Of a stretch of DNA of 61,036 bases, positions 944 through 22,573 are shown piece by piece. Positions within the stretch are counted from its first letter, which is position 1. The number at the start of each line of letters is the position of its first letter. The stretch is from Myxococcota bacterium (GTDB lineage: Bacteria; Myxococcota_A; Bradymonadia; UBA7976; UBA1532): positions 1-61,036 of the forward strand of contig CAUJDF010000072.1 of assembly GCA_963169045.1 (NCBI GenBank), read 5' to 3'. Under the pieces are notes generated by a model that was not told where the DNA came from, did no database searches, and saw only the letters and a list, made by a program, of their open reading frames with translations. A program made the position numbers and the translations under genes.

Positions 944-987
944 GCGTGCCCGAGGACGGTCTTCGGGCCGGCGACGAGGAGGAGTCG

Positions 988-2336: not shown

Positions 2337-2337
<1 letters not shown>
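988..2337 (+). CDS. DDE-type integrase/transposase (rve fold)
   Basis: A 449-residue integrase. An N-terminal helix-turn-helix region is followed by an RNase H-fold catalytic core with the DDE triad visible: Asp in 'WTSDLMHG', Asp in 'DNGATF', and Glu in 'GRGKIERFF'. A small C-terminal Mu-like beta-barrel region ('VRVDGRLYEAPDGY') follows. The protein would cut and join transposon ends. The ATG at 988 is preferred because GAGGAGGAG lies directly upstream; a GTG at 946 in frame is less likely. The stop overlaps the ATG of the downstream ATPase (TGATG), as in IS21 and Tn7-like modules where integrase and ATPase are coupled. With the ATPase frameshifted, transposition may be lost. Confidence 0.85.
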
Positions 2338-3140
<803 letters not shown>

Positions 3141-3144
<4 letters not shown>

Positions 3145-4585: not shown

Positions 4586-5506
4586 CTATCCCAGGAGCGC
4601 GGTGAGCAGCGACGGCGGGACGACGACCTCGGCGACGCGGGCGCGGTCGAGGGGGCCGATGCGGAAGCGCGGGCCGGCGGCTTCGCTCGCGGGCTCGAGG
4701 CTCGACTCCACTTCGGCGAGCAGGGTGGTCTCGCTCGCGCGCAGCGCGCCGCGCCACTCGGCGAAGGCGTCCTCGCGGGACGAGACGACGATGGCGTGGG
4801 TGCAGCGGTTGAGGATCGCCTGATTCTTGCGGTCGATGCGGCCGCCGCAGTCGACGAGGAGCAGCGTCTTCTCGCGGCGCAGGGCGTCGAGCTGTTCGCA
4901 GACGCGATGGACGAAGGCGTCGTCGAAGCGGTTCTTGTAGCGGAGCGTGCGGGCGTCGTCCGCGGCGTCGGCGTACCAGTCGCCTTCGCCGTCCGGGCAG
5001 GCGCGCAGCACGAACACGTCGCGCTGGTAGGGGGCGGCCGTCAGCGTCGCGCGGAGCGCCTGCCGTAAGGCGCCGACGAGGACGGTCTTTCCGCTGTGGG
5101 GTGGCCCCAGGAACGCGACGACCTTGCCCGCCGGCGCGGCCGCTTCGGGCCGGGCCGGCGCGACCGACGCGTGGCGCGGGAGCCACGGGCGGAGGCGCTC
5201 CGGCGGCAGGATCGCGCCGACCGGCATCGCCTCCGGCACGCGTGTGGCCACGACCACGGCGCCCAGGCGCGGATCGGTGGTCGCGGTCCAGGCGGCGTCG
5301 CGGCAGAGGTCGACCAGGCGCCCGTACAGCCAGATCGGCGCGCGTCCGTTGACGACGAGGCCCCGGTGCGGATCGGGCGGGCGCGGGAGGCGCACCGCCG
5401 AGAGCTCGCTGGCGTCGATGAGTCCGTTGCCGTCGAGGAAGACGTCGAGGACGTCGAACGCTCCCGGTGTCGGGACGACGGTCAGCCGCAGATTGGAGTC
5501 GGTCAC
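4586..5506 (-). CDS. csx3: Csx3 (Crn3)-AAA ATPase fusion
   Basis: A 306-residue fusion. Residues about 1-100 are a Csx3 domain ('NGRAPIWLYGRLVD', 'DPRLGAVVVAT'). Residues about 125-300 are a P-loop ATPase with Walker A 'GPPHSGKT' and a Walker B-like 'TLLLVDCGGRID'. Csx3 (Crn3) proteins bind or degrade cyclic tetra-adenylate and so damp type III CRISPR signalling; Csx3-ATPase fusions are a known but poorly understood variant. The Asp and Arg of the DPRLG motif are kept, but the position corresponding by eye to the catalytic His of Archaeoglobus Csx3 is Asp here ('CRDAAW'), so ring-nuclease activity is uncertain. GTG start overlaps the RT gene stop (GTGA), with GGAGGA upstream. The 4415-4585 gap behind it holds nothing recognised. 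Confidence 0.85.
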   Translation of the reverse strand: MTDSNLRLTVVPTPGAFDVLDVFLDGNGLIDASELSAVRLPRPPDPHRGLVVNGRAPIWLYGRLVDLCRDAAWTATTDPRLGAVVVATRVPEAMPVGAILPPERLRPWLPRHASVAPARPEAAAPAGKVVAFLGPPHSGKTVLVGALRQALRATLTAAPYQRDVFVLRACPDGEGDWYADAADDARTLRYKNRFDDAFVHRVCEQLDALRREKTLLLVDCGGRIDRKNQAILNRCTHAIVVSSREDAFAEWRGALRASETTLLAEVESSLEPASEAAGPRFRIGPLDRARVAEVVVPPSLLTALLG

Positions 5507-8500
5507 ACGTCCTCCGTTCGTTCGAGCCGGAAGCGCGGCGGCTGGCCCGGCTGCCGGACGAGGGTGGCGCCGCGGACCGGGACCCGGTCGGTGCCCGCGC
5601 GCTCGAAGAGGGCGTCGAGGTCCCGGGTCGCCCGCTGAAGGCCGCGCTCCGCGTTGGCGAGGGCCTCGCGCAGTCGGCCGATGCGGTCGAGCGCCCGCTG
5701 GAAGTCGGCCGACGTCGGTCCATCCTGCGTGGGTCGCGCGTCCACGCCGCTGGCGACCGGGGCCGGTCGCCCCCGGGCGGGCTCGACGGCGACCGGCGCC
5801 GCGGCGCCCGGCTCGGCGGCGATCGTCTCGGCGCGGCTCGCTGCGCGGGCGTCGATGGTCGCCGGCTGCGTCGCGTCCTGGGTGACGGGCGGTGTGTCGA
5901 GCGCGAGTCGCGGCAGAGCGCCTGCGGGCGCGGTGTCCGGTGCCGGGTGGTCCGGCAGCCGCGCGCCGGCAGGGTCCTCGGGCGGCGCACCGGCCGGCGC
6001 GGCCGCGGCTCCGGGGCGCGGCGCGGGCGCCGGTCCGGTGGCGCGCCGTCGGGCGTCCATGCGCTCGCGGAATGCGGGGATCTCGTCCGGCCGCATCGCG
6101 TGCAGCAGCGGCGTGGGGTACGCGCCGCCCCACAGGCCGCGGAAGCGGCAGTCGCAGCCCACCTCCCGCGTGACCGCCGTGTGCCGCTGCGCCAGGCGGG
6201 CGCAGCTCGCCGGGAACGGCGGCAGTCGCTCGAGCCGCGTGCGCACGAGGCGCGGATCGCCGGGGAGCAGCGCGCACAGCGTCGGCTCCGTCTCGCCACG
6301 CGGCAGGTGGCCCAGGACCTCCACCAGGCTGGCCCGCTCCTCCGTCTCGAGGTGGCCGAGGCGCTCCGCCTTGCGCGCCAGCGCGCGCAACACCGCGCAC
6401 CCGGTGAGCACCCGCGTTGCGGTCGGCTGTTCGGCGAGCCGGGCGAGCACTTCGCTCTCGCGCCGCTGGACGACCTCTGGATGCTGGTGGCCGCGCCGCA
6501 CGATCGCCGTGACGCGGCGCACGTCGGCGCGCTCGGCGCTCCGGAGGACGGCGAGCGGCTGCGCGAGCGGCAGGCCCGCCGCGTCGAGCCACGTGGACCG
6601 GCGGCCGGTGCGCGGGTGGACGCCGAGCGGCAGCCACGCGTGCGGTCCGGGGGCGCGTCCCGGCCGGTCGCTCGCCGGCAGCCACGAGACGCCGAGGCCC
6701 TCCGGCGCCGGTCCTGCCTCTTCGGCGAGGCGCGTCAGCAGCTCGCGCGCGTGCCGCATCGGCAACGGCCCGTCGAAGAGGAACCAGAGGCGGTGCTCGC
6801 CGCCCCCCGTGTCCTCGAGCAACGAGGCGAGCCCGTGCCGCCGCGCCGCCCGCGACCAGGCGCCCAGGTGGTCGACGGCGCGGCGCGTCCAGGCGCGCCA
6901 GGCGGCGACGACCTCCGCGCCGGTCGCGTCGTCGCGCGCGACCCACGGCGGCAGGGCCACCGTCCGGCGCACCCGCGTCTCCACCACCGCGAAGCGGACC
7001 GTCGCGTCCTCGCGCACGAGGTAGACGCCGCGCCGCGCTTCGCCGGCCAGGTGCCGCGCGATGCCGGCGCCGTCGAGCGGACCCGGCGTGTCGGCGGCCA
7101 CGTGGTGCGCGCCCTTGTCGCGGCGCTCGACGGCGTGGCGGTCCCGTCGCCCGGCGAAGCACGCGCCGATCGTCTCGAGGTCGGCGTCGCTCGCGGCGAC
7201 CTCGGCCTGGCGCCTCTCCGGTCGGGCGGATCCGGCGAGCGCGCGCGCCGCTTCGGCCAGCGCCAGCGCCCCCGCCTGCGCGAAGGCGCGCGCCGCGGCG
7301 GCCCAGTCGGCCCGCAGCGCACGCACGGCGGCCACCGGAACGGCGAGCACCTCGGCGATCGCCTGCTCGCGCCGGCCGTCCGCCGCCAGCGCGTGGCGCG
7401 CCTCGACGAGCGCCGCCGCGTCGCCGTCGGGCCCGCCGAGCGCCCGCCAGGCCCCCACGAGGGCCGCGCCGACGTCGTCCGCCGCGCCGGGCGCGTCCGC
7501 GGCGCCCGGTCCGCCGACCGCGCCGGTCCCGCCCGCGGCGCCCGGTCCGCCGACCGCGCCGGTCCCGCTCGCGGCGCCCGGACTGCGGACCGCGCCGGTC
7601 CCGCTCGCGGCGCCCGGACTGCGGACCGCGCCGGTCCCGCCCGCGGCGCCCGGACTGCGGACCGCGCCGGTCCCGCCCGCGGCGCCCGGTGCGCCGCCCC
7701 CGTCGAGCGTCGCGCCCGGCGCGAGTGTCGCCATCCCGGCGAGCGCGACACGCCGCCGCGCGAGCGCCGCGTCCGGCCGCCGCCGCAGCAGCGCCCACAG
7801 CACGAGCGGGTGCTCCACCTCCTCGGCGAGCAGCGGCCCGTACCAGCGCTCCCACTCCTCGACCAGCGCCGCGACCCGCCCCGGCGCCGCCGCCGCCCGC
7901 ACCGCCAGCGCCGCGTGCGCCGCCGCCGACGGACGCCGCCCCCGTTCATCGAAGCGCGCCCCCAGGAACACGAAGCCTTCGCGCAGGTGGCCGCGCGTCG
8001 TCTTGCGGTCGTTCAGCCGCAACCCCAGCGCCTCGACCTCGGACGTCAGCAGGCCGAGCGCGTCCGTCGCCTCCTGCGGCGTCTCGGCCAGCGCCAGCAC
8101 GTCGTCGGCGTAGCGCAGATATGCGAAGCCCGCCGCCGTCAGCGCCGCGTCGACCGGCCGCAGGTACACGTTCGACAGCAGGGGCGACAGCGCGCTGCCC
8201 TGCCCGATGCCCTCGCCGGGTTCGTCGAGCACGGCGCCCTCGATCGCGCCGGCCGAGAGCAGGCGTCCGATCAGGCGCACGATCGGCGGATCGATCCCGT
8301 CGGCGGCGAGCGTCGCCAGCAGCCGGTCGCGGTCGATGCGGTCGAAGAACTTGCGCACGTCGGTGCGCACGAACCACGTGCGTCCCTGGCCGAGGTGCCG
8401 GTCGACCTCGCCGAGCGCCATCGCGACGGAGCGGCCCGGGCGGTACGCGTACGCGGCGTCCGACAGCGTGGGCTCGTAGTGCGCGTTCAGGACCACGGCG

Positions 8501-8769
8501 AGTGCGCGCTGGACGACTCGGTCCTCGACGGCGGCGACCACGATGCGGCGGTCGGGGTCGTCGAGAAGGCGCACGCGCCGCCCCGGACGCGGCCGCCACG
8601 TGCCGTCGAGGAGCGACCGCGACAGCGCCGCGAGACGGGTCCGGGCGTCGCGCGCGTAGCCTTCGACGGTGAGGCCGTCGACGCCGGGGCCGGCGCCGCG
8701 CCGCTCCACCCGCCGCCACGCGTCGTCGAGCACGCCCGCCGATGCCACTTGTGCCATCAGCCCTGCCAT
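5503..8769 (-). CDS. Reverse transcriptase fused to a CRISPR-associated primase-polymerase-like domain
   Basis: A 1088-residue fusion. Residues about 10-330 are a group II intron-like RT: 'RTDVRKFFDRID' (metal-binding Asp), 'GIGQGSALSPLLSN' and catalytic YADD at 220-223. Residues 360-427 are a 12-residue repeat linker. Residues about 525-760 match the AEP primase-polymerase fold of CAPP/TOTE-type proteins ('RRGVYLVREDATVRFAVV', 'GGGEHRLWFLFDG'). A C-terminal zone has four spaced cysteines ending in 'GCDCRF' at 871-876, like the Fe-S region of these primases. An Ala/Pro tail and a short coiled coil follow. The expected DxD metal motif reads Val-Glu-Thr-Arg at about 596. RT/CAPP genes are linked to spacer capture from RNA, but no cas1 or cas2 is adjacent. 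A second ATG lies at 8757. Confidence 0.85.
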   Translation of the reverse strand: MAGLMAQVASAGVLDDAWRRVERRGAGPGVDGLTVEGYARDARTRLAALSRSLLDGTWRPRPGRRVRLLDDPDRRIVVAAVEDRVVQRALAVVLNAHYEPTLSDAAYAYRPGRSVAMALGEVDRHLGQGRTWFVRTDVRKFFDRIDRDRLLATLAADGIDPPIVRLIGRLLSAGAIEGAVLDEPGEGIGQGSALSPLLSNVYLRPVDAALTAAGFAYLRYADDVLALAETPQEATDALGLLTSEVEALGLRLNDRKTTRGHLREGFVFLGARFDERGRRPSAAAHAALAVRAAAAPGRVAALVEEWERWYGPLLAEEVEHPLVLWALLRRRPDAALARRRVALAGMATLAPGATLDGGGAPGAAGGTGAVRSPGAAGGTGAVRSPGAASGTGAVRSPGAASGTGAVGGPGAAGGTGAVGGPGAADAPGAADDVGAALVGAWRALGGPDGDAAALVEARHALAADGRREQAIAEVLAVPVAAVRALRADWAAAARAFAQAGALALAEAARALAGSARPERRQAEVAASDADLETIGACFAGRRDRHAVERRDKGAHHVAADTPGPLDGAGIARHLAGEARRGVYLVREDATVRFAVVETRVRRTVALPPWVARDDATGAEVVAAWRAWTRRAVDHLGAWSRAARRHGLASLLEDTGGGEHRLWFLFDGPLPMRHARELLTRLAEEAGPAPEGLGVSWLPASDRPGRAPGPHAWLPLGVHPRTGRRSTWLDAAGLPLAQPLAVLRSAERADVRRVTAIVRRGHQHPEVVQRRESEVLARLAEQPTATRVLTGCAVLRALARKAERLGHLETEERASLVEVLGHLPRGETEPTLCALLPGDPRLVRTRLERLPPFPASCARLAQRHTAVTREVGCDCRFRGLWGGAYPTPLLHAMRPDEIPAFRERMDARRRATGPAPAPRPGAAAAPAGAPPEDPAGARLPDHPAPDTAPAGALPRLALDTPPVTQDATQPATIDARAASRAETIAAEPGAAAPVAVEPARGRPAPVASGVDARPTQDGPTSADFQRALDRIGRLREALANAERGLQRATRDLDALFERAGTDRVPVRGATLVRQPGQPPRFRLERTEDV
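7502..7690 (-). repeat. 36-bp in-frame tandem repeats in the RT-primase linker
   Basis: Five consecutive 36-bp units run from 7502 to 7681, plus a partial sixth. They translate to the 12-residue unit Pro-Gly-Ala-Ala-Gly/Ser-Gly-Thr-Gly-Ala-Val-Arg/Gly-Ser/Gly. There are no spacers and the unit is a multiple of three, so this is a flexible coding linker between the RT and primase halves, not a CRISPR array. Copy-number change would alter linker length without breaking the frame. Confidence 0.85.
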
Positions 8770-8823
8770 GCCACTCGTTGTCACACGGCGAAGAGCGCGG
8801 CGCAACGGTCGGCGGAGGGCGGG

Positions 8824-11271
8824 ATGAGCGACGAGCGACGGGGACTGCGGGGCATCGGCGCCGACGGCGCGGTGGTGTGGCTCGTGCCGGACGGCGGCGC
8901 GGTCGAGCAGGGCGCGCACACCGTCGTCCACGTACCGGCGCGCCTGCCGGACGCCCGCGCCTGGCTCGGCGCCTCGCCGTTGGCCAGGCTGCGGGCGCCG
9001 GTCGCCTGGGAGGCCGCCGACGCCTGGTCGGCAGTGTTGCTCGCGCTGCCCGAGCTGCGCGCGGGGGCGCCGCGCGCGGCCGAGCCGGCGGATCCCTCCC
9101 CGCGGGAGCTGCTGCGCCTCGCCGAGCGCGCCGCGAGCTGGCACGGCGCGGAGCACCGGGAGACGCGCCGCGCGCGGGACGAGGCGCTCCGCCGCAACGA
9201 CGCCGCCGACGTCGAGCGCGCGATCGCCCGCGGCGCGCGCTCCCGCGCCCTGCTGCAGCGTCTGTACGACGTCGCGCTCGCGCGGGGCGCCGGTCACCCG
9301 GAGGTCACCGAGGCGCGGCGCCGCTTCGAGCGCGAGTTCCGGTACCTCACCCGCGAGGCCGACAAGCAGGTCTCCGCCGCCGACGCCGCCCGGCGACGCC
9401 GCGCGGTGACCACCTCGAGCGTGCGCGCCGGCGACGTCCCCCGCGAGATCCACCGGCTCGCGCCCTCGCCGGCGTGGACGCTGCTCATCGACGAGACCGG
9501 CCGCCGCTTCGCCGAGGAGGACGACGGCCCCGAGGGCCGCTTCGTCGGCCTGCTCGTGCCGGAGGGCTGCGCCGTGACGCCGCCGCCGCCGGGCTTCCAC
9601 GCCGTCGACGCGGACGCCGCGACCAACGACCGCGTCGTCCAGGCGGTGCTCGACGCGCCGGTGGGCGTCTTCGGCGTCGGCCTGTCGGCGGTGCCGCCGG
9701 CTCCGGGCGACCGCTGGGTCGCCGGCGTGCTCGAGGTCGTGCACTGGGTCCTGCGCCTGCTGCCGGTCCACGGACGCACGCGGCTGGACGTGCTCGTCGA
9801 GCAGCGGGGCGCGCACCGCGCCCAGGCCGACTGGCAGGCCCTCGTCACCGAGGCCGGCCGTCACCTCGCCGAGATCAACCCCGCCCGCTATCGCCAGATC
9901 GCGCTCGACCTGCGGGTCGTCGCCAAGGACGCGCACCCGCTCAACGGGAGCGTCGACGCGCTCGCGTTCATGTGGGGCAGCCGGGCGCCGGCGGCGCGCG
10001 CACGCCTCCGGCAGAGCGGCCTGACGGACGGCTGCCTCCACGGCGGCAGCCCGGTCGTGCTGCGGCGCGCCTGGGACCTGCTCGGACGCGGCACCGCGCT
10101 CGACGGCGCCACGTGGGCGGAGCTGGCGTGGCATCCCGACGCCGGTGGCATCGCCGGCCTGCTCCTGGACCAGGTGGGCGCCGCCGCGCGCGAGGACGTC
10201 GCGTTGTGGAGCCGCTATCTCGACGCCGCGGTCGACCACCTCGAGAGCAAGGGCGTCCGCATGGGCGCGCTCGGCCGACAGGTGGCGTGGCTCGAGGCGT
10301 GGCAGCCGCAGGGGGCGGTCCTGCCGCCGAAGCTCCGGCTGGCCTGGCTCGTCGCGCGGCTCGAGCACGACAACCACCTCGGCGCCGTCGACGGCGAGGT
10401 GCTGGCGGAGCTCGAGTCCCTCGGGGCGCGACTCTTCGACGAGGCGCCGGCGCTCGTGTGCCAGGCCGACCTCGACCGCGCGGTCCTGGCGACGAACCGC
10501 TTCGACTTCGCGGGCGCGACGGCGGCCCTGGCGCGCTTTGCGGACGTCCCGCCCGCGGTGCCGGGCCTCCAGCACTGGGGCCGGGTGCGCAGCTCGCTCG
10601 GGCAGCACGCGGCGTTCCGCGGGGAGCCGGCGAAGGCCGAGGTCCACTTCACCGAGGCCGTGGCGGCGTTCGCGCGCCTGTCCGACGAGCGCGTCGCCGC
10701 GGGCGAGGTGCGCCACACCGCGACCTACCGCGCCTTCGCGGCGCTCGACCGGCGCGACCTCGGCGCGGCGGCGCGGCGCGCCCTCGTCGCGGCGGTGGTC
10801 GACCTGACGCCCGACGCGATCGCCGCGCTGGCGCGGTCCGTCGAGCCGGCGACGCGGCACGGGCACCACCTGCTCGTCCGCTACCTTTGCGAGCACGGAC
10901 GCCCCGACGAGGTCGACGCCTACCTGGGGGCGCGACGGGACTGGCGCGTCGGGGAGGGCCACCCGTGGGCGCTCATCCGCGCAGGGAGGGCGGTGCTGCT
11001 GGCGCCGCGCGACGCCGCCGCCGCGCGCGAGGAGATGGCGCGCGCCGCCTCGCTCGCCCTCGACGGCGGGCCCACGCTGTGCTTCATCGGCGCGGCGCTG
11101 GCGATGGTCGCCGCCCGCTGGGGCGCGCCGCCGGCGGTGGACGCAGCGCTGCTCGACGAGCTCGCGGCCCTGCTGCCGGGCGCGCCGGTCGACGCGCTGC
11201 GGCGCGCCCTCGCCGGCGAGGGGTCGCCGCTCGCCGCGCTGCGGACGCTCCTTCCGTTCAACTTCCGCTGA
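8824..11271 (+). CDS. DUF3800/RNase H-like plus TPR protein of the CRISPR locus
   Basis: An 815-residue protein, no named family certain. Residues about 215-385 look like a DUF3800-type RNase H-fold nuclease: strand-plus-Asp 'WTLLIDETG' (Asp near 221), 'LDVLVEQRG' (Glu near 326) and 'SVDALAFMWGS' (Asp near 378), matching the spacing of DDE-like RNase H families. Residues about 430-815 are Ala/Leu-rich paired helices resembling TPRs. The first 200 residues are helical. It starts at ATG 8824 behind GGCGGAGGGCGGG and is divergent from the RT-primase gene across only 54 bases, suggesting shared control. It may process nucleic acid for the RT-primase, but that is inference from fold and position. 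Confidence 0.6.
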   Translation: MSDERRGLRGIGADGAVVWLVPDGGAVEQGAHTVVHVPARLPDARAWLGASPLARLRAPVAWEAADAWSAVLLALPELRAGAPRAAEPADPSPRELLRLAERAASWHGAEHRETRRARDEALRRNDAADVERAIARGARSRALLQRLYDVALARGAGHPEVTEARRRFEREFRYLTREADKQVSAADAARRRRAVTTSSVRAGDVPREIHRLAPSPAWTLLIDETGRRFAEEDDGPEGRFVGLLVPEGCAVTPPPPGFHAVDADAATNDRVVQAVLDAPVGVFGVGLSAVPPAPGDRWVAGVLEVVHWVLRLLPVHGRTRLDVLVEQRGAHRAQADWQALVTEAGRHLAEINPARYRQIALDLRVVAKDAHPLNGSVDALAFMWGSRAPAARARLRQSGLTDGCLHGGSPVVLRRAWDLLGRGTALDGATWAELAWHPDAGGIAGLLLDQVGAAAREDVALWSRYLDAAVDHLESKGVRMGALGRQVAWLEAWQPQGAVLPPKLRLAWLVARLEHDNHLGAVDGEVLAELESLGARLFDEAPALVCQADLDRAVLATNRFDFAGATAALARFADVPPAVPGLQHWGRVRSSLGQHAAFRGEPAKAEVHFTEAVAAFARLSDERVAAGEVRHTATYRAFAALDRRDLGAAARRALVAAVVDLTPDAIAALARSVEPATRHGHHLLVRYLCEHGRPDEVDAYLGARRDWRVGEGHPWALIRAGRAVLLAPRDAAAAREEMARAASLALDGGPTLCFIGAALAMVAARWGAPPAVDAALLDELAALLPGAPVDALRRALAGEGSPLAALRTLLPFNFR

Positions 11272-11600: not shown

Positions 11601-13013
11601 TCAGCCGCCGCCGGCCAGCGGGACGAAGTCGTAGACGGGATCGGCGTCGGCGGGCGCCTCGCGTCCGTCGGCTGCGGCGACGGCGCGCGCGTGCTCGAGC
11701 ACGACGGCCCGGAACTGGTCGAGCTCCCGCGCCTCGAGCGTGCGGAAGCCGTGGGCGAGGATGCTCTTGTTGCGCCCATTGAGCAGGCCCTCGAACCTGG
11801 CGTCGCCCACGTCCCTCAGGCCGGCGAGCACGGGATCGCCGAGCGCGCGCAACAGCGTCCGCGTCTGGGACAGCGCCAGCTTGTCGGGCAGCAACGCGAG
11901 GCGGTGCTCGGGGCGGCACGCGGCGTTGTAGCGCTCGAGCAGCGCCGCCGGGGCGTCCGGTCGGACGTCACCGACGTCGATGCCGTGGCGCGCCGCCAGC
12001 CGCTGGAGCGAGAGCTCGAGGCAGCGATACAGCAACAGCGCCGCCAGGTCGGGCTCGCGCTCGCTGCGCCGGCGCGCGGTCGCCAGCAGGAAGCGCGACA
12101 GCGCCTCGACCAGGTCCGCGTCGAACGCGGGCCGCGCGGCGCGGTCGGTGGCGCGCCCGAGCAGCGCCAGCGCCTCCGCCTGCCGATCGAGGCGCGCCGT
12201 CGCGTCGAGGAGCGGCTCCTTCGGGAGCATGCGCCGGGAGGCCCGCCCGAGGTCCTGCGCCACCTCGCGGACCGCCCGCTCTGCCTCGCCGAACCGCAGC
12301 GCGGACCAGGCCGCGTACGCGCCGCAGAGCCGCGCGCGGGCGCCGAAGTGGAAGCCGGGCGCCCGCGCCGCGTCGAGGCCGCGGAAGAGCCGCTCCGCCA
12401 CGTCGAAGAGCCCGCGGTCGAAGGCCCGCTCCGCCTCCACGCGCTCGAGATCGCCGAATACCACGAGCGGGTGTTCGACGACGTGCGCGCGCTCGAGCCC
12501 GAACCACGGGAACGCGCGCGAGATGCGCTCCGACTCCACGTAGATCTGGCGAAGGCGCAGGTAGCCGGCCACCGTCGACGCGCCGGCGGTCATCGCCTTG
12601 GTGCCGGACGTGAAGTCGATGGTGATCGCCTCGCCGGCGTGCCGCTCCACGATGTCGCGGATGGCTTCGTACACCGCGACCGAGTCGGCCTTGCCGACGT
12701 GCCGCGTCCGCACGTCGCGGTCGCCGGCGAGCGCGAGCGCCCGCGCGACGCTCGCCGCCGACTCGTCGGTGTGCACCAGGTACACGACCCGGGCCGGCGT
12801 GCGCGTCAGCGAGAGCGCCACCGAGTAGGGCTGCGTCCCCACCGTCGCGACCAGCACGTCGACCGGCTCCGCCTCGGCCGCCATCGCCGCGAGCGCCGCC
12901 GGAAAGTACTCCGCCTCGTAGCGCCGCGCCGCCTCGTCGGCTGTCTCGGCCTCACCCACGCGCGCCGCCGCCAGGGCCCGCCGTCGCAGCGCGTCCTCGT
13001 CTCGCAGGTTCAT
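11601..13013 (-). CDS. CARF-HEPN ribonuclease (TIGR02710-like CRISPR ancillary protein)
   Basis: A 470-residue cyclic-oligoadenylate-activated RNase candidate. The CARF Rossmann domain covers about 45-200: 'VDVLVATVGTQPYSVALSL', then 'VYLVHTDES', then the ligand-loop motif 'DFTSGTKAMTAG' near 133-144. The C-terminal half is helical and ends in a HEPN domain with the RNase motif Arg414-Asn ... His421 ('GRNKSILAHG', Rx6H). This order and the 'TSGTKAM' motif match the TIGR02710 family of type III accessory proteins. The ATG at 13013 has GGGAGG upstream. It is transcribed away from the cmr operon, sharing a 106-base divergent promoter region with it. It would cut RNA non-specifically when Cas10 makes its cyclic messenger. 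Confidence 0.85.
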   Translation of the reverse strand: MNLRDEDALRRRALAAARVGEAETADEAARRYEAEYFPAALAAMAAEAEPVDVLVATVGTQPYSVALSLTRTPARVVYLVHTDESAASVARALALAGDRDVRTRHVGKADSVAVYEAIRDIVERHAGEAITIDFTSGTKAMTAGASTVAGYLRLRQIYVESERISRAFPWFGLERAHVVEHPLVVFGDLERVEAERAFDRGLFDVAERLFRGLDAARAPGFHFGARARLCGAYAAWSALRFGEAERAVREVAQDLGRASRRMLPKEPLLDATARLDRQAEALALLGRATDRAARPAFDADLVEALSRFLLATARRRSEREPDLAALLLYRCLELSLQRLAARHGIDVGDVRPDAPAALLERYNAACRPEHRLALLPDKLALSQTRTLLRALGDPVLAGLRDVGDARFEGLLNGRNKSILAHGFRTLEARELDQFRAVVLEHARAVAAADGREAPADADPVYDFVPLAGGG

Positions 13014-13119: not shown

Positions 13120-13767
13120 ATGGCTTCGAAGAACCAGGGAGCGTACGGGGGCAGGGTCAGCCGCGGGCGGTACGTGGCGCGCCGACTCAAGACCGCAGGC
13201 CAGCAGCAGCGAGCCGCGGACCTGCTCGCGCTGGCGCTCGCCGCACGCGCCGCCGGCCGGGCCTGGGAGGACGCGCACGACCCGGTCGACGACGCGCTCG
13301 CGGACCGCGACGCCGCCGACCTGGCCCTCGACACCGCCGCGCAGGAGGCCCGCTTCGGCCTCGCGTCGCGCGGCATGCACGCCACCCGCGAAGCGCCCTA
13401 CACCGACATCTTCCCCGACGGCATCGACCCCTACGTCAGCGCGCCGCTCGACCAGCAGGCGCCGCGCTACCGCGACCTCCTCCGCCGCGTCGCCCTGCAC
13501 CTCGCCGCCGACGACGCCGTCCGCGTCGCCCTCGCCCCCCGCGTCGAAGCCGGCCTCGCCGCCTGGACGGCGGCGTGCGACCGCCTCGAAGCCGCGCGCG
13601 CCGAGACGGCGCTCGCCCGCGGCGCGCTCGAGAAGGCCGTCGACGCGCTCGACCGCCAGCTGCAGAAGACGCGCGCCGCGCTGACCGTCGACTTCGACGC
13701 GCGCACGGCGGCCAGCTTCTTCCCGAAGACGAAGGCGAAGGCGACGGGGGCGGCCGAGGACGCGTGA
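13120..13767 (+). CDS. Coiled-coil-like protein leading the cmr operon
   Basis: A 215-residue Ala-rich helical protein, not recognised. Residues about 1-70 are basic then helical, the middle contains 'YTDIFPDGIDPYVSAPL', and residues about 130-190 form a continuous amphipathic helix likely to be a coiled coil. There is no signal peptide or membrane segment. It starts at ATG 13120 behind GGGGGAGGG, 26 bases downstream of a good promoter, and ends 38 bases before the HEPN-NTPase gene. Its place as first gene of the operon suggests a role in this CRISPR system, for example as a partner or inhibitor of the HEPN-NTPase, but no function can be read from the sequence. Confidence 0.65.
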   Translation: MASKNQGAYGGRVSRGRYVARRLKTAGQQQRAADLLALALAARAAGRAWEDAHDPVDDALADRDAADLALDTAAQEARFGLASRGMHATREAPYTDIFPDGIDPYVSAPLDQQAPRYRDLLRRVALHLAADDAVRVALAPRVEAGLAAWTAACDRLEAARAETALARGALEKAVDALDRQLQKTRAALTVDFDARTAASFFPKTKAKATGAAEDA

Positions 13768-13805
13768 CGCAGCCTGCCGGCGCCGTCCGGGTGAGGTGAG
13801 AGCTC

Positions 13806-15575
13806 TTGGCATCGGGCAACCCTGAGACAGAGATGACGGACGACGTCCTGCGAGAGCGGTTCGTCGTCTACGGAAGAGACCTGGCTCGCGATCTGCGACC
13901 GGCGCCCGACGATCACCTGTTTCGCCTTCTCTTCCGAGCCATTCGGGGCCATCACGAGCTCTGGCGGGCTTCGGGGCGTCGCGCGATGGTCGGCATCGCC
14001 GCCGGGTTGCGGTCTCGGATTCCCGACAGCGAGCAGAAGCACGTTCGCGCCTGGATCGCGCTGTTCGAGCCGATGGTCCGTCGCCTCTGCCGCCTCGGCG
14101 GAGTCAAGGCGGCGGAGACGGACAACCTGGGGGACGTCATGCGGCTGGCGGGCGTCGAGCGCCAGTACGGCGGCGGCGATGCCGCGCTCGCCGGCGCTCT
14201 CGGCGTCGCGCGATTGCAAGCCACGACGGATCGCGAGCTCGAGTGGCTGCTGGCCGTCCAGGCGCGCCGAACACGCAACGAGCTCGCGCACGCTCGCCTG
14301 GATGTGTTGTCCTGGCGTCGACGCGTCGAGGTCACCGAGGCCATCGTCGTCACCCTCCTCCGCCTTCTCCAGTCGCGGCGTGATCGCATCGAGCAGGCGC
14401 TGCTGTGGGAGGAGCTGAGGCCGACGTCCGCGGCCGGCACCGACATCGACTGGGCATGGGCACCGACCGGGCAGGATGAGGTCACGACCGGTTCCTCCGC
14501 CGCCTTCGCCCGCGCGCTCATTCACCTCCTGGGAGATAGGCGGGTGGTGGTGCTCCAGGGCACACGCGGCGTCGGCCTCACCCACTTCGCGCTGACACTG
14601 GCCGCGGTCGGCATCGCCGATCGGGCCTTCGTATTCATGAGACTTCCGCTCGACGAGCCGGAGCCGATCGATCGTGACGAGGGTGACGACGCGCACCTCG
14701 GCGCGCTGGTCGGTTCGAGCCAGGCGCGGCAGGAGTGGTTCCGGAGCGCTCTTCGCCAGCGCCGTCTCGTCCTCGTGGTGGACGGGCTCGGCCGTGTGTC
14801 ATGGCCCCGGTTCGTGCGCGAACGCCAGGAGATGGAGCGCGCCTTCGCCAGGCATCCCGGGCTGCGCTTCGTCCTGCTCGTGGCGGATGGCAGCGAGGTG
14901 ATGGCGACTCCGCATGCGCTCGGGACGCTCGGACACGCGGCGACGCACGTGCGGACTCTGGCGCGGCGATGCAACGTCGACGAGCTGCCGCCGACCATGT
15001 ATCTCGGCTACTGGATCCGGCAACTGACGCCTCGGGTGCGCGAGGCCCTCGGCTCCAAGCCGGACGCGGCGACGGTCGTGCGCTGCATCGTGCGCGAGGG
15101 CCTCGGCCCGAGTCATCCCGAGCGGTGGCTGGCGCTGGAGCCGCCCCTCCGGCGGCCGGCGGCGGCCTGGATCGCAGCGCGAACGCTGCACCACATCGCC
15201 CGGATGCTCGACGAGGTCGCCGACGGGGATGCCGTCAGCGTCGCGATGGCGCAGCGCTCCGTCTACACGGCCGCGGAGGCGCTGCGCGGCGACGCCACCG
15301 GACCGCTCGCGGACAAGCTCGACGATGCCGTCCTCGCGGCCCTGGTCGACGCCGGGCTGCTGCGCTCCGCGGGCGAAGAGGCATACGCCATCGCGCACCC
15401 GGACCTCGAAGCGCAGGTCTGGGACGAAGGCTTCGCCGGGTGGACGCTCGCGGGCTTCCTCGGATTGAGCGAGGAAGAGCGCCATGCGCCCTGGGCGTCC
15501 CTCAGCGTGGTGTCCGGTCACGACACGTCCATGCGTCTCGATGATGAAACCGAAATCGCGGGAGTGCTCGCGTGA
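13806..15575 (+). CDS. HEPN domain fused to a P-loop NTPase with degenerate Walker A
   Basis: A 589-residue protein in the cmr operon. An N-terminal helical domain carries a HEPN RNase motif: 'RRTRNELAH' gives Arg157-Asn ... His162 (Rx4H). A P-loop fold follows, with 'VVVLQGTRGVGLTHFA' at about 247-262, where the Walker A Lys is replaced by Leu258. A Walker B-like 'LVLVVDGLG' has Asp326. Helical and winged-helix-like C-terminal regions complete a STAND/NACHT-like layout. There is no CARF domain, so it is not an obvious cyclic-oligoadenylate effector. The start is TTG 13806 (GAGGTGAG upstream) or ATG 13833. Its stop overlaps the cmr1 start. An RNase held by a nucleotide-sensing switch is a reasonable inference. 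Confidence 0.7.
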   Translation: MASGNPETEMTDDVLRERFVVYGRDLARDLRPAPDDHLFRLLFRAIRGHHELWRASGRRAMVGIAAGLRSRIPDSEQKHVRAWIALFEPMVRRLCRLGGVKAAETDNLGDVMRLAGVERQYGGGDAALAGALGVARLQATTDRELEWLLAVQARRTRNELAHARLDVLSWRRRVEVTEAIVVTLLRLLQSRRDRIEQALLWEELRPTSAAGTDIDWAWAPTGQDEVTTGSSAAFARALIHLLGDRRVVVLQGTRGVGLTHFALTLAAVGIADRAFVFMRLPLDEPEPIDRDEGDDAHLGALVGSSQARQEWFRSALRQRRLVLVVDGLGRVSWPRFVRERQEMERAFARHPGLRFVLLVADGSEVMATPHALGTLGHAATHVRTLARRCNVDELPPTMYLGYWIRQLTPRVREALGSKPDAATVVRCIVREGLGPSHPERWLALEPPLRRPAAAWIAARTLHHIARMLDEVADGDAVSVAMAQRSVYTAAEALRGDATGPLADKLDDAVLAALVDAGLLRSAGEEAYAIAHPDLEAQVWDEGFAGWTLAGFLGLSEEERHAPWASLSVVSGHDTSMRLDDETEIAGVLA

Positions 15576-16960
15576 ACAATCCGCCGAAGCGTCCGCCCTT
15601 CCTGCCCGACTACGCGCGGGTCGTCCCACCGTCCTCGATCGTGAGCTGGACGCTCCCGCTCGAAGTCGTCACGCCCCTCTACGGCGGCGGCCCCCGGCCG
15701 CGCGACGTCGATCGCGCCACGCCCGTCCGCGTCTCGGGCGTCCGCGGGCAACTGCGCTTCTGGTGGCGCGCGCTGTTCGCGGGGCAGCTCCGCAACCCGC
15801 GCGCGCTGTATCAGCGGGAGCGCGAGCTGTGGGGCGGCCTGGGCGCGAACGCCCGGGAGGTCTCGTGCTCTCGCGTCTCGATCGCCGTGTCGGTCACGAA
15901 GACGACGTCGACCGAGAGCAGCGACGTCACCATCGGGCAGCCCGACGCTTACGCACTCTGGCCGGCGCGCGAGACCAACGAGGCCAGGGCGGCGGTCCGC
16001 TTCCGGCCGGGGCTCGCCTTCGACCTCGAGGTGCGCGTCGACGGCGCTTCGCCGAAGGACGTGGCCGAGGTGCGCGGCGCGCTGCGCGCATGGCTGCTCT
16101 TCGGCGGCGTCGGCGGTCGTACGCGGCGCGGTTGCGGCGCCGTCGCGCTGTCGACCCCCGCCGGTCGGGCGGAGTGGCTGCCCGAGCGGCTCGATCCCGA
16201 CTCCGTACGCGGCTGGCTGTCGCCGCATCCTTCGGCGGGCAAGGGCTTTCCGTCCCTCGCCGGGGCGGGCCTGTACGTGGGGGCGACGACGCCGGGCGCG
16301 GCGCCGGCATGGCACGCCGCGCTAACGTGGCTGCGCGACTTCCGGCAAGGCACGAATCCGCGTTCGACCGACGTCGCCGCTGCGGGCGCATTCGCGCGCC
16401 TGCGGCCCTCGCTCCAGCCGGGCGCGGCGGGGCGACCGGGTCGCTCCCGCTGGCCCGAGCCGGACGTGGTGCGCAACGCCTTCGGACCGCGGTTTCACGA
16501 CCACGTGCCGCAGATCAAGACCGACGACCGCAGCTGGCCGCGCGCGCAGTTCGGACTGCCGATCCAGATGCAGTTCCAGCGCAATGCCCGGCCCGGGGCG
16601 CAGCCATATCCGAACCAGCCGCCGCCGCGCCTCACCGTGGGGTGGCGCCCGAACGGCGACAAGGACAAGGTCAGTCAGCGCCTCGCCAGCCCGCTGATCG
16701 TGAAGCCGGTGCAGACCCGCACGGGACACTTCGTGTCGGCCGCGCTGTGGCTCGACCGCACGTTGCCCGCCAGCGCCCAGGCGGGGCGCGTCGATCGCGA
16801 ACGGCGCGACGAGCCGCAGCTCGACGCCCGCACCACGGCGCCGATGAGCCGGATGCCGGCGGCGCCGCTCTTCACGCCGCTCGCGGGCAAGACATCGGTG
16901 CGCGATGCCTTCTGCGACTGGCTCGTCGCCACGCACCGGCTGAACGGAGGGACGCTGTGA
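15572..16960 (+). CDS. cmr1: Cmr1 (Cas7-type subunit of type III-B effector)
   Basis: A 462-residue RAMP protein. Diagnostic motifs are 'LEVVTPLYGGG' near residue 30, 'VRVSGVRGQLRFWWRALF' near 52-68, and the glycine-rich loop 'GGVGGRTRRGCG' around residue 180. Cmr1 caps the head of the Cmr filament and contacts the 3' region of the crRNA-target duplex. The second half contains 'FGLPIQMQF' and 'ASPLIVKPV', also typical of the family. It starts at GTG 15572, overlapping the NTPase stop by four bases, and its own stop overlaps the cas10 start (GTGA). The neighbours give a complete cmr1-6 set. Confidence 0.92.
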   Translation: MNNPPKRPPFLPDYARVVPPSSIVSWTLPLEVVTPLYGGGPRPRDVDRATPVRVSGVRGQLRFWWRALFAGQLRNPRALYQRERELWGGLGANAREVSCSRVSIAVSVTKTTSTESSDVTIGQPDAYALWPARETNEARAAVRFRPGLAFDLEVRVDGASPKDVAEVRGALRAWLLFGGVGGRTRRGCGAVALSTPAGRAEWLPERLDPDSVRGWLSPHPSAGKGFPSLAGAGLYVGATTPGAAPAWHAALTWLRDFRQGTNPRSTDVAAAGAFARLRPSLQPGAAGRPGRSRWPEPDVVRNAFGPRFHDHVPQIKTDDRSWPRAQFGLPIQMQFQRNARPGAQPYPNQPPPRLTVGWRPNGDKDKVSQRLASPLIVKPVQTRTGHFVSAALWLDRTLPASAQAGRVDRERRDEPQLDARTTAPMSRMPAAPLFTPLAGKTSVRDAFCDWLVATHRLNGGTL

Positions 16961-18885
16961 GCCAGACCCTGCTCGTGCTGGCCCTGGGCCCCGTCCAGGA
17001 CTTCATCGAACGCGCGCGTCGCATGCGGGACCTGTGGTTCGGCTCGCACATCCTGTCCGAGCTCTCGCGCGCCGCGGCGAAGCGACTCGCCGAGGAGCCG
17101 GGGTGGACGCTCGTCTTCCCCGCGCTCGACCTGGGCGACGTCGAGCTCGATCCGTGTCTCGGCATGCGTCGCGCGGATGGCAACCCGCCGCTCGGCATCG
17201 TCAACAAGGTGCTGGCGCTGGGTCCGGCCACCGACGACGCGGCGGTGGAGCTCCTCGCCGCCGCCGCTCGGGGGAAGGCGATCGACGTCTGGAAGGACTT
17301 CGCCCGGCAGGCGGCGGGGCGGGCGAAGGACCTGATCGCGCGCGACCTCCGGCCGGAGGAGACCCCCGAGGGCGTCATCGAGTCGCTCATCGAGGTCTAT
17401 GCGAGCTGGACGTCCGTCGTCGCGCCCGGCGATTTCGAGCGGGCGCGCCAGGACGCCGAGGAGGCCCTCGCCGCGCGCAAGCGACTGCGAGATTTCTCGC
17501 GCTGGCCGTGCGGCGGTCCGTATCCGAAGTCGAGCCTCGACGGGTGCCGCGAGAGCATCCTGGTCGACCGCGCCATGCGACCACGCGTCGAGAGGCCGCG
17601 GAAGAGCGCCGGCGACCTTCGCCTCGATGAGCGCGAGCACCTGGACGGCGTCGCCTTCGTGAAGCGGGCCGGCGGCGAGCCCGATCAGTTCGTGCCGGTG
17701 GCGCGTGTCGCCGTCGAGCCGTGGCTCGCGGCGGTGCAGCGGGCCGCGGTCGCCTCGCCCGCCGTCGGCCAGACGCTCGCCAACCTCGAGAAGGCGTGCC
17801 GCGAGCGCCGCGTCGCGCGGTGCAGCGCCGACGCCGCGGCGTGGCTCCGGGGCGGCTTCGTGTTCGACGGCGAGCTCTTCTTCGAGGGCCAGTGGCAGAA
17901 CATCGAGCTGTCCGGCGAAGGCGACGCGCCGACGGCGTTCTGCCGCCGGTTCGTCGGACCGCTCTTCACCCGGCACCGGTTCCCGGCGCCCTCTCCGTAT
18001 CTCGCGTGCCTGAGCGCGGACGGCGACTCGATGGGCGCGGCGCTCTCGACCCTCGGCTCGGCCGACGAGCACCGCGCCGTCTCGCGCGCGCTCGCGGAGT
18101 TCGCCCGCGGCGTCCGCGCGATCGTGGAGGGCCACGCCGGCGTGCAGATCTACGCCGGGGGCGACGACGTGCTCGCCTTCGTCCCTGTCGACAGCGCCGT
18201 GCAGTGCGCCGACGACCTGCGCCGCGCCTTCCACCGGACGCTCGCGACGGCGTTCCCCGGGCAGGACGCGGCGCCCACCCTCTCCGTCGGCCTCGCCATC
18301 GGCCACACGCTGACGCCGCTCGGTGAGCTCGTGGGCCGCGCCCGCGACGCGCTCCATCTGGCGAAGGACGGCGACGACCTGCCGCCCGGCGATCCGCGCC
18401 GCCGCAACGCGCTCGGGGTGATCAGCGACAAGCGAAGCGGGGGGGAGACCGCGTGGCGCTGCCAGTGGACGGCGCCCGATGACGGCAGCCGCCCGGTGCA
18501 GCAGCTGGAAGCGCTGCGCGATCTGATGCTCGACGGCCGGATGCCACGCCGGCTGCCCTATGAGCTCCGGGAGGTGCGGGAGCGGATGCACGGGCTCTCC
18601 GACGAGGACCGAGTGCTGGGGCCGGCCTTCCGGCACGAGGTGGAGCGGGTGATCGCGCGCAAGCGTCCCGATGCGTCCATGCCGAAGGGCGCGCCGAAGC
18701 CGGACGCCAAAGCGTTCGGCCTCGAGCTCCCGGCGCCGAACGACTCGGGCGCAGGCAAGGTGCGCGACGCCCTGGACGAGTGGGTGAGGCGGGCCGAGGT
18801 GGCGATGATCCTGGCCGACGCTCGGCGGAACATCCGCGCCGTGGCGCGGGCCCTTCAGCGCAGTGCGGCGGAGGCGGTTCAGTGA
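16957..18885 (+). CDS. cas10: Cas10/Cmr2, large subunit with cyclase palm, no HD domain
   Basis: A 642-residue Cmr2. It begins directly with the first palm domain ('LGPVQDFIERARRMRDLWFG'), so the N-terminal HD nuclease domain found in many Cas10 proteins is absent. The first palm's Asp pair is in 'SADGDSMG' near 354, and the second palm has an intact GGDD at 401-404 ('YAGGDDVLAFVP'). Target RNA binding should therefore switch on cyclic oligoadenylate synthesis but not HD-dependent DNA cutting. A C-terminal helical D4-like domain follows. GTG start overlaps cmr1 by four bases and the stop overlaps cmr3. The two CARF proteins and Csx3 in this locus are the expected readers of its product. Confidence 0.93.
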   Translation: MSQTLLVLALGPVQDFIERARRMRDLWFGSHILSELSRAAAKRLAEEPGWTLVFPALDLGDVELDPCLGMRRADGNPPLGIVNKVLALGPATDDAAVELLAAAARGKAIDVWKDFARQAAGRAKDLIARDLRPEETPEGVIESLIEVYASWTSVVAPGDFERARQDAEEALAARKRLRDFSRWPCGGPYPKSSLDGCRESILVDRAMRPRVERPRKSAGDLRLDEREHLDGVAFVKRAGGEPDQFVPVARVAVEPWLAAVQRAAVASPAVGQTLANLEKACRERRVARCSADAAAWLRGGFVFDGELFFEGQWQNIELSGEGDAPTAFCRRFVGPLFTRHRFPAPSPYLACLSADGDSMGAALSTLGSADEHRAVSRALAEFARGVRAIVEGHAGVQIYAGGDDVLAFVPVDSAVQCADDLRRAFHRTLATAFPGQDAAPTLSVGLAIGHTLTPLGELVGRARDALHLAKDGDDLPPGDPRRRNALGVISDKRSGGETAWRCQWTAPDDGSRPVQQLEALRDLMLDGRMPRRLPYELREVRERMHGLSDEDRVLGPAFRHEVERVIARKRPDASMPKGAPKPDAKAFGLELPAPNDSGAGKVRDALDEWVRRAEVAMILADARRNIRAVARALQRSAAEAVQ

Positions 18886-20154: not shown

Positions 20155-21018
20155 ATGCAACGTGCCTACATCGTCCATGCCTTGTCGCCCCTCCACGCCG
20201 GCACCGGGCAGGCACAGGGCGCGATCGACCTGCCGATCGCCCGCCTCCGTGGGACGGGCATCCCGTACCTGCCGGGCAGCTCGGTAAAGGGCGTCCTGCG
20301 CGACGCGTCCAGGCCCCGGTCCGCATCCGAAGACGACGGCGCCGTTCACGCGGCGTTCGGTCCCGACGTCCCCGATGAAGAGAAGCGCTTCGCGGGCGCG
20401 CTGACGTTCGGCGACGCCCGCCTGCTCGCGCTGCCCATCCGCAGCTTCAAGGGGACGTTCGCCTGGGTGACGTCGCCGCTCCTCCTGCGGCTGGCGCGGC
20501 GCGATCTCGCCTGGACGCTCGACGTCCCGCGGCTGACCGCGTCGACGAGCACGCTGCTGACCAGCTCGACGGTGCTCGAGGCCAACGGCCACATCTTCCT
20601 CGAGGAGATGGAGTGCAAGAAGCACCCGGCCCCCGGCGACCTGGTCGATCGATGGGCCGCGAAGATCGCCGCGGCGGCGTTCGCTGGCGACGAGGAACTG
20701 TTCACCGAGCGGTTCGCCATCGTCGACGACGAGACGATGTCTCATCTGTGGGTGTGTTGCACCCAGGTTGACGCCCGCGTGCGCATCGACCGGGAGCGGG
20801 GCGTCGTCCAGGACGGGGCGCTCTGGTACGAGGAGAGCCTGCCCGCGGAGACGCTGCTCGTCGGCGTGGCCGTCGCCGCGGAGAAGCGCCAGGGGCACGA
20901 GGGCGCGGCGCTGCTCGATCGCTTCGTCGGGAAGCACCGCGACGACCTTCAGTTCGGCGGCAAGGCCACCGTCGGCCGTGGACGGGCGCGATTCCTGCCC
21001 GTCGTGGAGGCGCAGTGA
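20155..21018 (+). CDS. cmr4: Cmr4 (Cas7 backbone, target-RNA nuclease)
   Basis: A 287-residue Cmr4. The N-terminus shows the full signature: 'LSPLHAGTGQAQGAIDLPI' followed by 'TGIPYLPGSSVKGVLRD'. The Asp in 'AIDLPI' (Asp25) corresponds to the catalytic Asp that cuts bound target RNA at 6-nt intervals, so slicing should be intact. Later motifs include 'FGDARLLALPIRS' and the glycine-rich 'FGGKATVGRGR' near the C-terminus. Several copies stack to form the filament backbone. Its stop overlaps the cmr5 start (TGATG). Confidence 0.95.
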   Translation: MQRAYIVHALSPLHAGTGQAQGAIDLPIARLRGTGIPYLPGSSVKGVLRDASRPRSASEDDGAVHAAFGPDVPDEEKRFAGALTFGDARLLALPIRSFKGTFAWVTSPLLLRLARRDLAWTLDVPRLTASTSTLLTSSTVLEANGHIFLEEMECKKHPAPGDLVDRWAAKIAAAAFAGDEELFTERFAIVDDETMSHLWVCCTQVDARVRIDRERGVVQDGALWYEESLPAETLLVGVAVAAEKRQGHEGAALLDRFVGKHRDDLQFGGKATVGRGRARFLPVVEAQ

Positions 21019-21389
21019 TGAGGACGCTCGACCAGCGGCGCATGACGGTCGCGCACAACGCATTCCTTCCACTCTCGGCCGCCGACCGCAAGCTGTGGGA
21101 GGGCCTCGTGAACGGCCTCGGCGCCGAGGTGCAGCGCTGCGGCCTGCTGCAGGCGCTCGCCTTCCTGCACCGCCGGTCGTCGGAGCGCGAGAGGGAGCTC
21201 GTCGGCACCTTGTGCACCCTCATCGCCCAGCACCTGAAGCAGATGCGCCACCTGACGGACGAGCAGAGCCGCGGGCCGCTGCTGACGACCGTGCGCGACC
21301 TGCCGGTGGACGCCTACATGCGCGTGACGCGCGAGGTAATCGAGCTGTCGGTCTGGTTGAAGCGATCCGCGCAGATCGGAGTCGGCTGA
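21018..21389 (+). CDS. cmr5: Cmr5 (small subunit, Cas11)
   Basis: A 123-residue all-helical protein of the size and position expected for Cmr5. The start 'MRTLDQRRMTVAHNAF' is typical of the family, which begins with a helix containing Q-R-x-A. Several copies line the inner side of the Cmr filament and guide target RNA. ATG 21018 overlaps the cmr4 stop; a GTG at 21015 in frame is a less likely start. Its stop overlaps the ATG of cmr6. Confidence 0.88.
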   Translation: MRTLDQRRMTVAHNAFLPLSAADRKLWEGLVNGLGAEVQRCGLLQALAFLHRRSSERERELVGTLCTLIAQHLKQMRHLTDEQSRGPLLTTVRDLPVDAYMRVTREVIELSVWLKRSAQIGVG

Positions 21390-22573
21390 TGCGTCAGGCA
21401 CTCGTGAAGCTGGGCGCCGTGTTCGCGAAGGCGGAGTCCGCCCACGCCGGGCTCCTTCACGAGCGCTATGCGCCGCTCGAGTACGCGGATGTCAAGGACG
21501 TCGGCAAGGTGCCGACGGACGTGCGCGAGGCCTATCTGAAGCGCGTCGCCTCGATCCGCGTGCCGGCCGTGTATCGGGCGGCGTACCGGCGCTGGATGGG
21601 CGCGGCGCTCGCGGAAGGCGCGGCGTTCGCCTACGTCGAGGCGCACACCCGCCTCCTGCTGGGACATGGCAACCCCGCCCCTGGCGAGGTCGGGCTCACG
21701 CTGCATCCCGTCTATGGCGTGCCTTGCCTGCCAGGCAGCGCCCTGAAGGGACTGCTGAACCATTACATGGCGAGCTGGGCCGCCCCCACGGACGACGGGT
21801 GGCGCGGCGTGGCCTACGACGGCGGCGGGCGGCCGGTCGGCGAGCCGGGGCCGTACCACGGGCACGTCTTCGGGGCGCCCGAGCTCTCCGTCGAGGGGGC
21901 TGAGGTCGGCCGGCGCGGCAGCCTCGTCTTCGAGGATGCCTGGCTCGTGCCCGACTCGGTCGGCGACGCGCCGCTGGCGCTGGACGTGGTGACGCCCCAT
22001 CAGGGCGACTACTACCGGAAGCTCGGCGACGGCGCGTTTCCCGATGACTGGACCGACCCGGTGCCGGTGACGTTCCTCACGGTGCCGCCCGGCGCGCGGT
22101 TCCTGCTGGTGGTCTCGCCCGCGCCGGGCGACGAGCGGTCGGCGGGCATCGTCCTCGCGCACCTCTGCGATGCGCTGGCGACGTGGGGCATCGGCGCGAA
22201 GACCCGCGCCGGTTACGGGCGGCTCGGGCGAATCGCGCCGCCCGCCGAAGCCGTCGAGCCGGTCGCGGAGGCGCAGGCGCCGCGTCCGGCGCCGGCGCCC
22301 CGACCGGCGCCGCCGGCGCGTCCAGCCTCGGCGGCGCTCGACGCGATCGAGGCGGCGGTGAAGGAGGTGACCGACCCGGCCGAGAAGGAGAGCGCCCCGC
22401 CGATCGCCGCGCGGTTCGCGGAGCGCTTCGCCACGGACGCGCTGCTCGAGGCCCTGACGCCGTCCGAGTACCCGCACGCCTACGCGACGCTGCACGCGCT
22501 CAAGCGGCACAGCGGCCTGATGAAGCGGTGCGGCCCGCGCATCCTGGCCATGCTCGAGAAGGTGAAGTCATGA
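21389..22573 (+). CDS. cmr6: Cmr6 (Cas7-type subunit) with helical C-terminal extension
   Basis: A 394-residue Cmr6. The RAMP core spans about 1-285: 'TRLLLGHGNPAPGEVGLTL', 'GVPCLPGSALKGLLNHY', 'GSLVFEDAWLVPD', 'VTPHQGDYY' and the C-terminal glycine loop 'GIGAKTRAGYGRL', all diagnostic. Cmr6 sits near the 3' end of the crRNA next to Cmr1. A Pro/Ala-rich linker then leads to an extra helical domain of about 85 residues, longer than usual for Cmr6. ATG 21389 overlaps the cmr5 stop, and its stop overlaps the start of the CARF-HEPN gene, placing the effector RNase under the same transcript. Confidence 0.93.
   Translation: MRQALVKLGAVFAKAESAHAGLLHERYAPLEYADVKDVGKVPTDVREAYLKRVASIRVPAVYRAAYRRWMGAALAEGAAFAYVEAHTRLLLGHGNPAPGEVGLTLHPVYGVPCLPGSALKGLLNHYMASWAAPTDDGWRGVAYDGGGRPVGEPGPYHGHVFGAPELSVEGAEVGRRGSLVFEDAWLVPDSVGDAPLALDVVTPHQGDYYRKLGDGAFPDDWTDPVPVTFLTVPPGARFLLVVSPAPGDERSAGIVLAHLCDALATWGIGAKTRAGYGRLGRIAPPAEAVEPVAEAQAPRPAPAPRPAPPARPASAALDAIEAAVKEVTDPAEKESAPPIAARFAERFATDALLEALTPSEYPHAYATLHALKRHSGLMKRCGPRILAMLEKVKS

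Follow-up and report, generated by a model that had tools for sequence, protein, structure and literature searches.

The window, by which we mean the whole stretch of 61,036 nucleotides analysed here, belongs to a genome of 9.0 Mb in 109 contigs and carries a cmr operon on its plus strand. The first two genes of this operon, which we call CC (13120-13767; 215 aa, ATG start) and B (13806-15575; 589 aa, TTG start), lie 5' of cmr1 and are not Cmr subunits, as the first-pass annotation had recognized. The Cmr subunits themselves follow on the same strand: cmr1 (15572-16960; Pfam RAMPs, E 9.8e-20; TIGR01894, 7.2e-10), cas10/cmr2 (16957-18885, from a candidate start; TIGR02577, 1.1e-49; GGDD present), cmr3 (20135 at its end and 18780 at the start of its longest ORF, the true start being probably later; PF09700, 2e-38), cmr4 (20155-21018; TIGR02580, 3.4e-63), cmr5 (21015-21389; PF09701, 1.5e-15) and cmr6 (21401-22573, start provisional; TIGR01898, 1.2e-33). 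The operon then continues with a Csx1-like CARF-HEPN gene (22570-24060, frame from 22573; PADLOC PDLC01032, 6.3e-32), whose product has RNDLAH at residue 455. A second CARF-HEPN gene, of the TIGR02710 family and Csm6-like, diverges from the operon on the minus strand (11601-13013; TIGR02710, 2.1e-34; PF09670, 2.6e-18); it was scanned as a longer frame reaching 13385, with a probable start at 13013.

The four-base overlap between B and cmr1 is present as GTGA at 15572-15575, where the stop of B and the start of cmr1 coincide. Since cmr1 and cmr2 share an identical GTGA (16957-16960), the coupling of B to cmr1 reflects the general style of the operon. The proposal that CC sits directly behind a promoter is unproven, because no sigma-70-like site was found between 12900 and 15800. 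A scan with Rfam at gathering thresholds gave no CRISPR array match, and no array was recognized by eye in 20 of 27 repeat families.

Other genes of the window belong to the same neighbourhood. The minus-strand gene at 4586-5536 has a Csx3 ring-nuclease domain (PF09620, E 3.6e-19) and, after it, a P-loop recognized by eye, GPPHSGKT (AAA_16 only at E 0.063); it is a likely off-switch for the cyclic oligoadenylate of the local system. Also near the cmr operon on the minus strand, a reverse transcriptase (PF00078) is fused to a TOTE-type primase-polymerase (PF22548) at 5503-8676; the genome has two Cas1 matches, both on other contigs (C84 and C85). An 821-aa frame with no Pfam match at E 0.1 lies between the reverse transcriptase-primase and CARF-HEPN genes (8805-11271, plus strand). 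A Mu/Tn7-type transposase (rve, Mu-transpos_C) and, after it, an AAA_22 protein (TniB only at E 0.012) lie at the edge of the defence region (946-3144, plus strand). Farther along, tandem 21-nt repeats at 28191-28484 lie in a long minus-strand ORF and code for an Ala/Arg/Glu-rich repeat.

Gene B looks like a protein-coding frame. GAGGTGA stands six bases 5' of its TTG, GC content at codon positions 1, 2 and 3 is 0.77, 0.50 and 0.85, and the coding-like pattern is found in all 10 sub-windows examined. The protein has no match in Pfam, NCBIfam or PADLOC at E up to 1.

The N-terminal part of B looks like a HEPN domain. Both residues named earlier as an RNase active site, Arg157 and His162, are present in RNELAH (residues 157-162; 14274-14291, plus strand), the sole R[ND]x3-4H of the protein. 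The HEPN survey of Anantharaman et al. (2013, PMC3710099) describes the motif as Rx4-6H in which the Arg is followed by a polar residue, usually N, D or H, and RNELAH fits it. A second Arg-to-His site, RDEGDDAH at 290-297, fits Rx6H with D after the Arg and falls within the P-loop module instead of the helical N-terminal part. The loose form Rx4-6H is worthless as evidence because B is rich in Arg, and it occurred in 99.9% of 20,000 shuffled versions of B. Stricter forms, all picked after inspection of the sequence, were rarer: R[ND]x[LIVM][AVLSI]H occurred in 1.6% and RNxLAH in 0.025% of the same shuffles, and R[NDH]x[LIVM]AH in 417 of 50,000.

The position of the motif is also suggestive. 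Helices are predicted with low confidence at residues 50-71, 74-97 and 142-162 and again from 167/168 onward, within a HEPN-like helical region of about residues 50-200 (13953-14405, plus strand). In these poor AlphaFold models (pLDDT 33-46 around the motif), helix 142-162 closes at His162 and is followed by a loop and a long helix. According to the same survey (PMC3710099), the HEPN motif closes helix 3 with helix 4 next, and many families have Ex3[KR]; B has E88-R92 (EPMVR, 88-92) within an earlier predicted helix. The structure prediction called for by the first-pass annotation gave models of B, and they were poor: the single-sequence model had a pLDDT of 42.8, and a trial with residues 1-205 was no better (45.0). 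A fold search with the poor model of B returned nothing with E below 0.001 (TM about 0.1), and HEPN was absent from the best 50. Neither B nor its segments matched a HEPN family in Pfam, NCBIfam or PADLOC, and the only Pfam match of the HEPN-like segment, Abdominal-A at E 0.3-0.5, is meaningless. Because profile and fold matches are both lacking, we describe B as HEPN-like and not as a proven member of the family.

B also differs from the effectors of known type III systems. It shares an R-N-x-L-A-H-type motif with the Csx1-like protein, and both are encoded in the cmr operon, but neither B nor its segments matched any of the many CARF models of PADLOC, in line with the earlier statement that B has no CARF domain. 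Similarity of B to the two local CARF-HEPN proteins is confined to the short motif stretch (best E 0.20 and 4.0), and we rejected an origin of its HEPN-like region by duplication of the HEPN domain of either one. We considered whether cyclic oligoadenylate might activate B through a sensor of a kind not recognized, for instance in the helical C-terminal 200 residues. The window does contain the signalling parts (the GGDD of Cas10, two CARF-HEPN proteins and Csx3), but these same parts would make B redundant as a cyclic oligoadenylate effector, and a set of models as rich in CARF as PADLOC matched no part of B. We regard such a sensor as very unlikely.

Behind the HEPN-like region lies what is likely a degenerate STAND-like P-loop module. 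The P-loop-like segment VVVLQGTRGVGLT (residues 247-259; 14544-14582, plus strand) includes GTRGVGLT at 252-259, in which Leu258 replaces the expected Lys, as had been noted before, so that Walker A, GxxxxGK[ST], is not matched. It is followed by a Walker-B-like strand, LVLVVDG (residues 321-327; 14766-14786, plus strand), and then LGRV, in the order of P-loop proteins. The predicted structure alternates between beta and alpha, with one strand (246-251) before the P-loop and another (321-326) at the Walker-B-like position, again from the poor AlphaFold model. Among 50,000 shuffled versions of B, the strict P-loop-like pattern appeared in 4, a looser one in 344 and a Walker-B-like strand in 2,426, and the strict pattern followed by a Walker-B-like strand appeared in none; these patterns, too, were picked after inspection of the sequence. 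At E up to 10, segment 14415-14960 had four Pfam matches, all of which we take to be P-loop families; the best was NACHT (E 0.06), and nSTAND3 scored E 0.28, both short of the cut-off. NACHT is unspecific at such scores: at E 0.1 it gave matches in every one of 14 control genomes, and the 47 that it gave in the genome of B at that threshold (150 of 245 candidates scored) did not include B. For these reasons we use STAND for B as a likely but unproven label. Of the earlier description of B as a HEPN protein with a STAND-like P-loop, then, the motifs fit; profile and fold searches did not confirm it.

The same evidence bears on two deflationary readings of B. One is that B is not HEPN at all but some helical protein, P-loop-derived or otherwise, in which RNELAH arose by chance. 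The lack of a family match, the poor models and the occurrence of looser motif forms in 0.8 to 1.6% of shuffles are compatible with this, but the type of the motif, its predicted location where a helix ends and the way the features are ordered argue for HEPN; it is on motif, place and order that we base the call, and we hold a chance RNELAH to be quite unlikely. The other is that B was once a defence protein and is now decaying or inert. The lost Walker A Lys would suit this, as would the failure of the searches to find relatives that could show constraint. Against it stand 589 open codons with a uniform codon-position signature and an intact RNELAH, and we consider this reading unlikely.

The predicted architecture of B has published counterparts. 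Bacterial proteins with an N-terminal HEPN domain fused to a STAND NTPase were described as early as 2013 (Anantharaman et al. 2013, PMC3710099), and B shares with them the order of HEPN followed by a STAND-like P-loop as well as Rx4H with N after the Arg. It differs from them in its lost P-loop Lys, in the lack of a significant sequence match and in its position before cmr1. PMC8195603 describes two-gene nSTAND2 systems in which an inactive STAND is fused to HEPN or GT4. B likewise would join an inactive STAND-like module and a HEPN effector in one protein, but no active STAND partner adjoins it, its neighbours being cmr1 and CC, which matches no P-loop family in Pfam or NCBIfam. STAND proteins have been linked to cas genes before: in Streptomyces, a STAND NTPase adjoins a derived I-E CRISPR module, a link found in numerous species (PMC8730458), whereas B is found in one genome. 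The legend of a figure of new class 1 variants, new type III variants included, defines STAND (PMC12669027), and a STAND-bearing type III variant may therefore have been published. No HEPN-STAND protein heading a cmr operon was described in the titles and abstract starts of the literature matches listed, a coverage that leaves out most subscription papers, and no such effector is named in the part of PMC11229360 that was available.

B is an orphan in every collection searched. No homologue was found in its own genome or in 15 other genomes of its order, and a shallow scan of 376 other genomes of its phylum, those 15 included, yielded none that we accepted. These large scans score few first-look candidates per genome (e.g. 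3 of 14), so relatives can be missed. Nine phylum matches with E from 4e-4 to 1e-2 were rejected; two are ATPase/STAND-like proteins, presumably an ABC-ATPase-like and a STAND-TPR-like protein, and the rest are frames without matching motifs. Among 29 genomes, taken from 30 of the 80 cmr1 loci described below, there were three weak matches (E 0.0012-0.0068), of which two were inspected and not borne out and the third covers 52 residues of a 70-aa frame. Scans of 692 genomes of two other phyla, those of the cmr1 loci L118 (398 genomes) and L087 (294), gave one match each, at E 3e-4 and 1.4e-4. Neither was reproduced by tblastn with the same residues, their sites being, we assume, a sigma-54-regulator-like protein and a repeat protein, and no homologue was accepted. 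Phages and plasmids gave none, a scan of genome and viral contigs that is sensitive to close relatives only gave none, and PDB chain sequences gave nothing significant (best E 1.2).

To place B and CC among other cmr operons we used a Cmr1 alignment search, which gave 292 confirmed loci; 80 were kept, of which 63 have 2 kb or more of sequence ahead of the cmr1 match and 17 have less. Neither B nor CC matched in any of the 80 (best E 1.3 for B and 0.65 for CC), so the co-conservation with cmr1 that the first-pass annotation had suggested looking for was not detected, and B shows no conserved association with type III loci. The closest operon, L085, has a Cmr1 of 47% identity and cmr1-6 plus Csx1 in the same order. 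Before its cmr1 (L085:878-4656), we saw by eye kinase-like and TIR-like ORFs on the plus strand and then a minus-strand sigma-factor-like ORF, with no CC or B. A CARF-HEPN gene precedes cmr1 in L076 and L088, and various other genes, judged by eye, do so in further cmr1-first loci of the phylum; the site before cmr1 is variable among loci. After eight cmr2-first loci and five with almost no upstream DNA were dropped, a crude ORF finder reported a same-strand upstream ORF in 51 of 67 loci. A canonical Walker A together with R[ND]x3-4H occurs in one of these 51 (L099), and none of them has R[NDH]x[LIVM]AH or the strict P-loop-like pattern with the Lys position left free.

These loci bear on the possibility that this lineage has in B an ancillary Cmr effector, which would dock on the Cmr complex and be activated by target RNA recognition with no second messenger. 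Co-translation with cmr1, the lack of a CARF domain and the variability of the site, where L076 and L088 carry a CARF-HEPN effector gene, would suit such a role. However, all 80 cmr1 loci lack a match to B, and a messenger pathway is already present in two CARF-HEPN proteins, a GGDD Cas10 and a Csx3 gene; we give this docking role a low probability. A more specific form of it, in which B would be a private CARF-less RNase with a nucleotide-dead STAND, made with Cmr1 by translational coupling and activated by contact with target-bound Cmr, seems to us quite improbable.

Gene CC has a different distribution. Its matches in Pfam, NCBIfam and PADLOC at E up to 1 are all weak, the best in PADLOC being one called 'Effector' (E 0.046), and a profile of CC gave weak TolC matches (best E 0.022). 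Three paralogues, one of them a partial match, lie on other contigs of the same genome, and five further copies occur in 4 of 187 other genomes of the phylum. No common family emerged among the nine CC members, with a weak Flagellin_N match in one (E 0.0012) and weaker ones in the rest; CC is probably a helical family. When ten window proteins were compared by tblastn (E up to 0.01) with stretches of 11-16 kb around the eight copies outside the window, CC alone matched, and none of the eight lay near a match to the Cmr, Csx1 or CARF-HEPN proteins of the window. Cmr4 (TIGR02580) was found in three of the five CC-bearing genomes, above the cut-off in two, and never on a contig bearing a non-window copy of CC. 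The link of CC to CRISPR consists of its position in this operon and nothing further. For CC, then, relatives are found away from type III loci (0 of 8 near cmr, csx1 or CARF-HEPN matches), the very outcome that the first-pass annotation had named as counting against its proposals.

One of those proposals made CC and B a toxin-inhibitor pair. The two genes are indeed adjacent on the same strand, separated by a 38-bp gap in which no terminator was called. However, no match to B was found in the 11-16-kb stretches around any of the eight other copies of CC, three of those copies are in this same genome, where B is single-copy, and the neighbours of CC, judged by eye, differ at every site. We think a toxin-inhibitor pair highly improbable. 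The other proposal, a third arm of immunity, fares no better, with the pair missing from 80 cmr1 loci and the relatives of CC elsewhere. Given that B has no homologues, that the pair is absent at those loci and that CC lies elsewhere, a conserved arm or a conserved toxin-inhibitor pair is unlikely, although a third arm private to this lineage may exist. For the pair, a recent passenger is a likelier reading than an additional arm of CRISPR immunity.

Our preferred explanation, which we hold tentatively and at somewhat less than even confidence, counts B, as an orphan effector, among the known proteins that combine an N-terminal HEPN with STAND, and sees in it a HEPN RNase independent of cyclic oligoadenylate and co-expressed with Cmr. 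The RNase, acting through Arg157 and His162, would be held in check by the STAND-like module, whose nucleotide site appears to have decayed; release would therefore probably come from binding of a partner or ligand and not from ATP hydrolysis. B would have been acquired at a site between cmr1, with which it is now translated, and CC, a chromosomal gene unrelated to it. Its arrival at the operon was probably recent, a term we use because B is absent elsewhere, and the lack of any match in 80 cmr1 loci fits a recent passenger. As read from its sequence, B would most likely act in abortive defence, cutting RNA when triggered by infection and with no need for cyclic oligoadenylate.

If activation by contact with Cmr were true, this one operon would combine messenger-driven and contact-driven RNase arms, and type III immunity could engage an RNase effector without cyclic nucleotides and would thus also sidestep ring nucleases. 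On the present evidence, the case is mainly a warning that overlap with cmr1 does not keep a HEPN-like gene from being an unconserved passenger, and that co-translation by itself is insufficient to define an effector.
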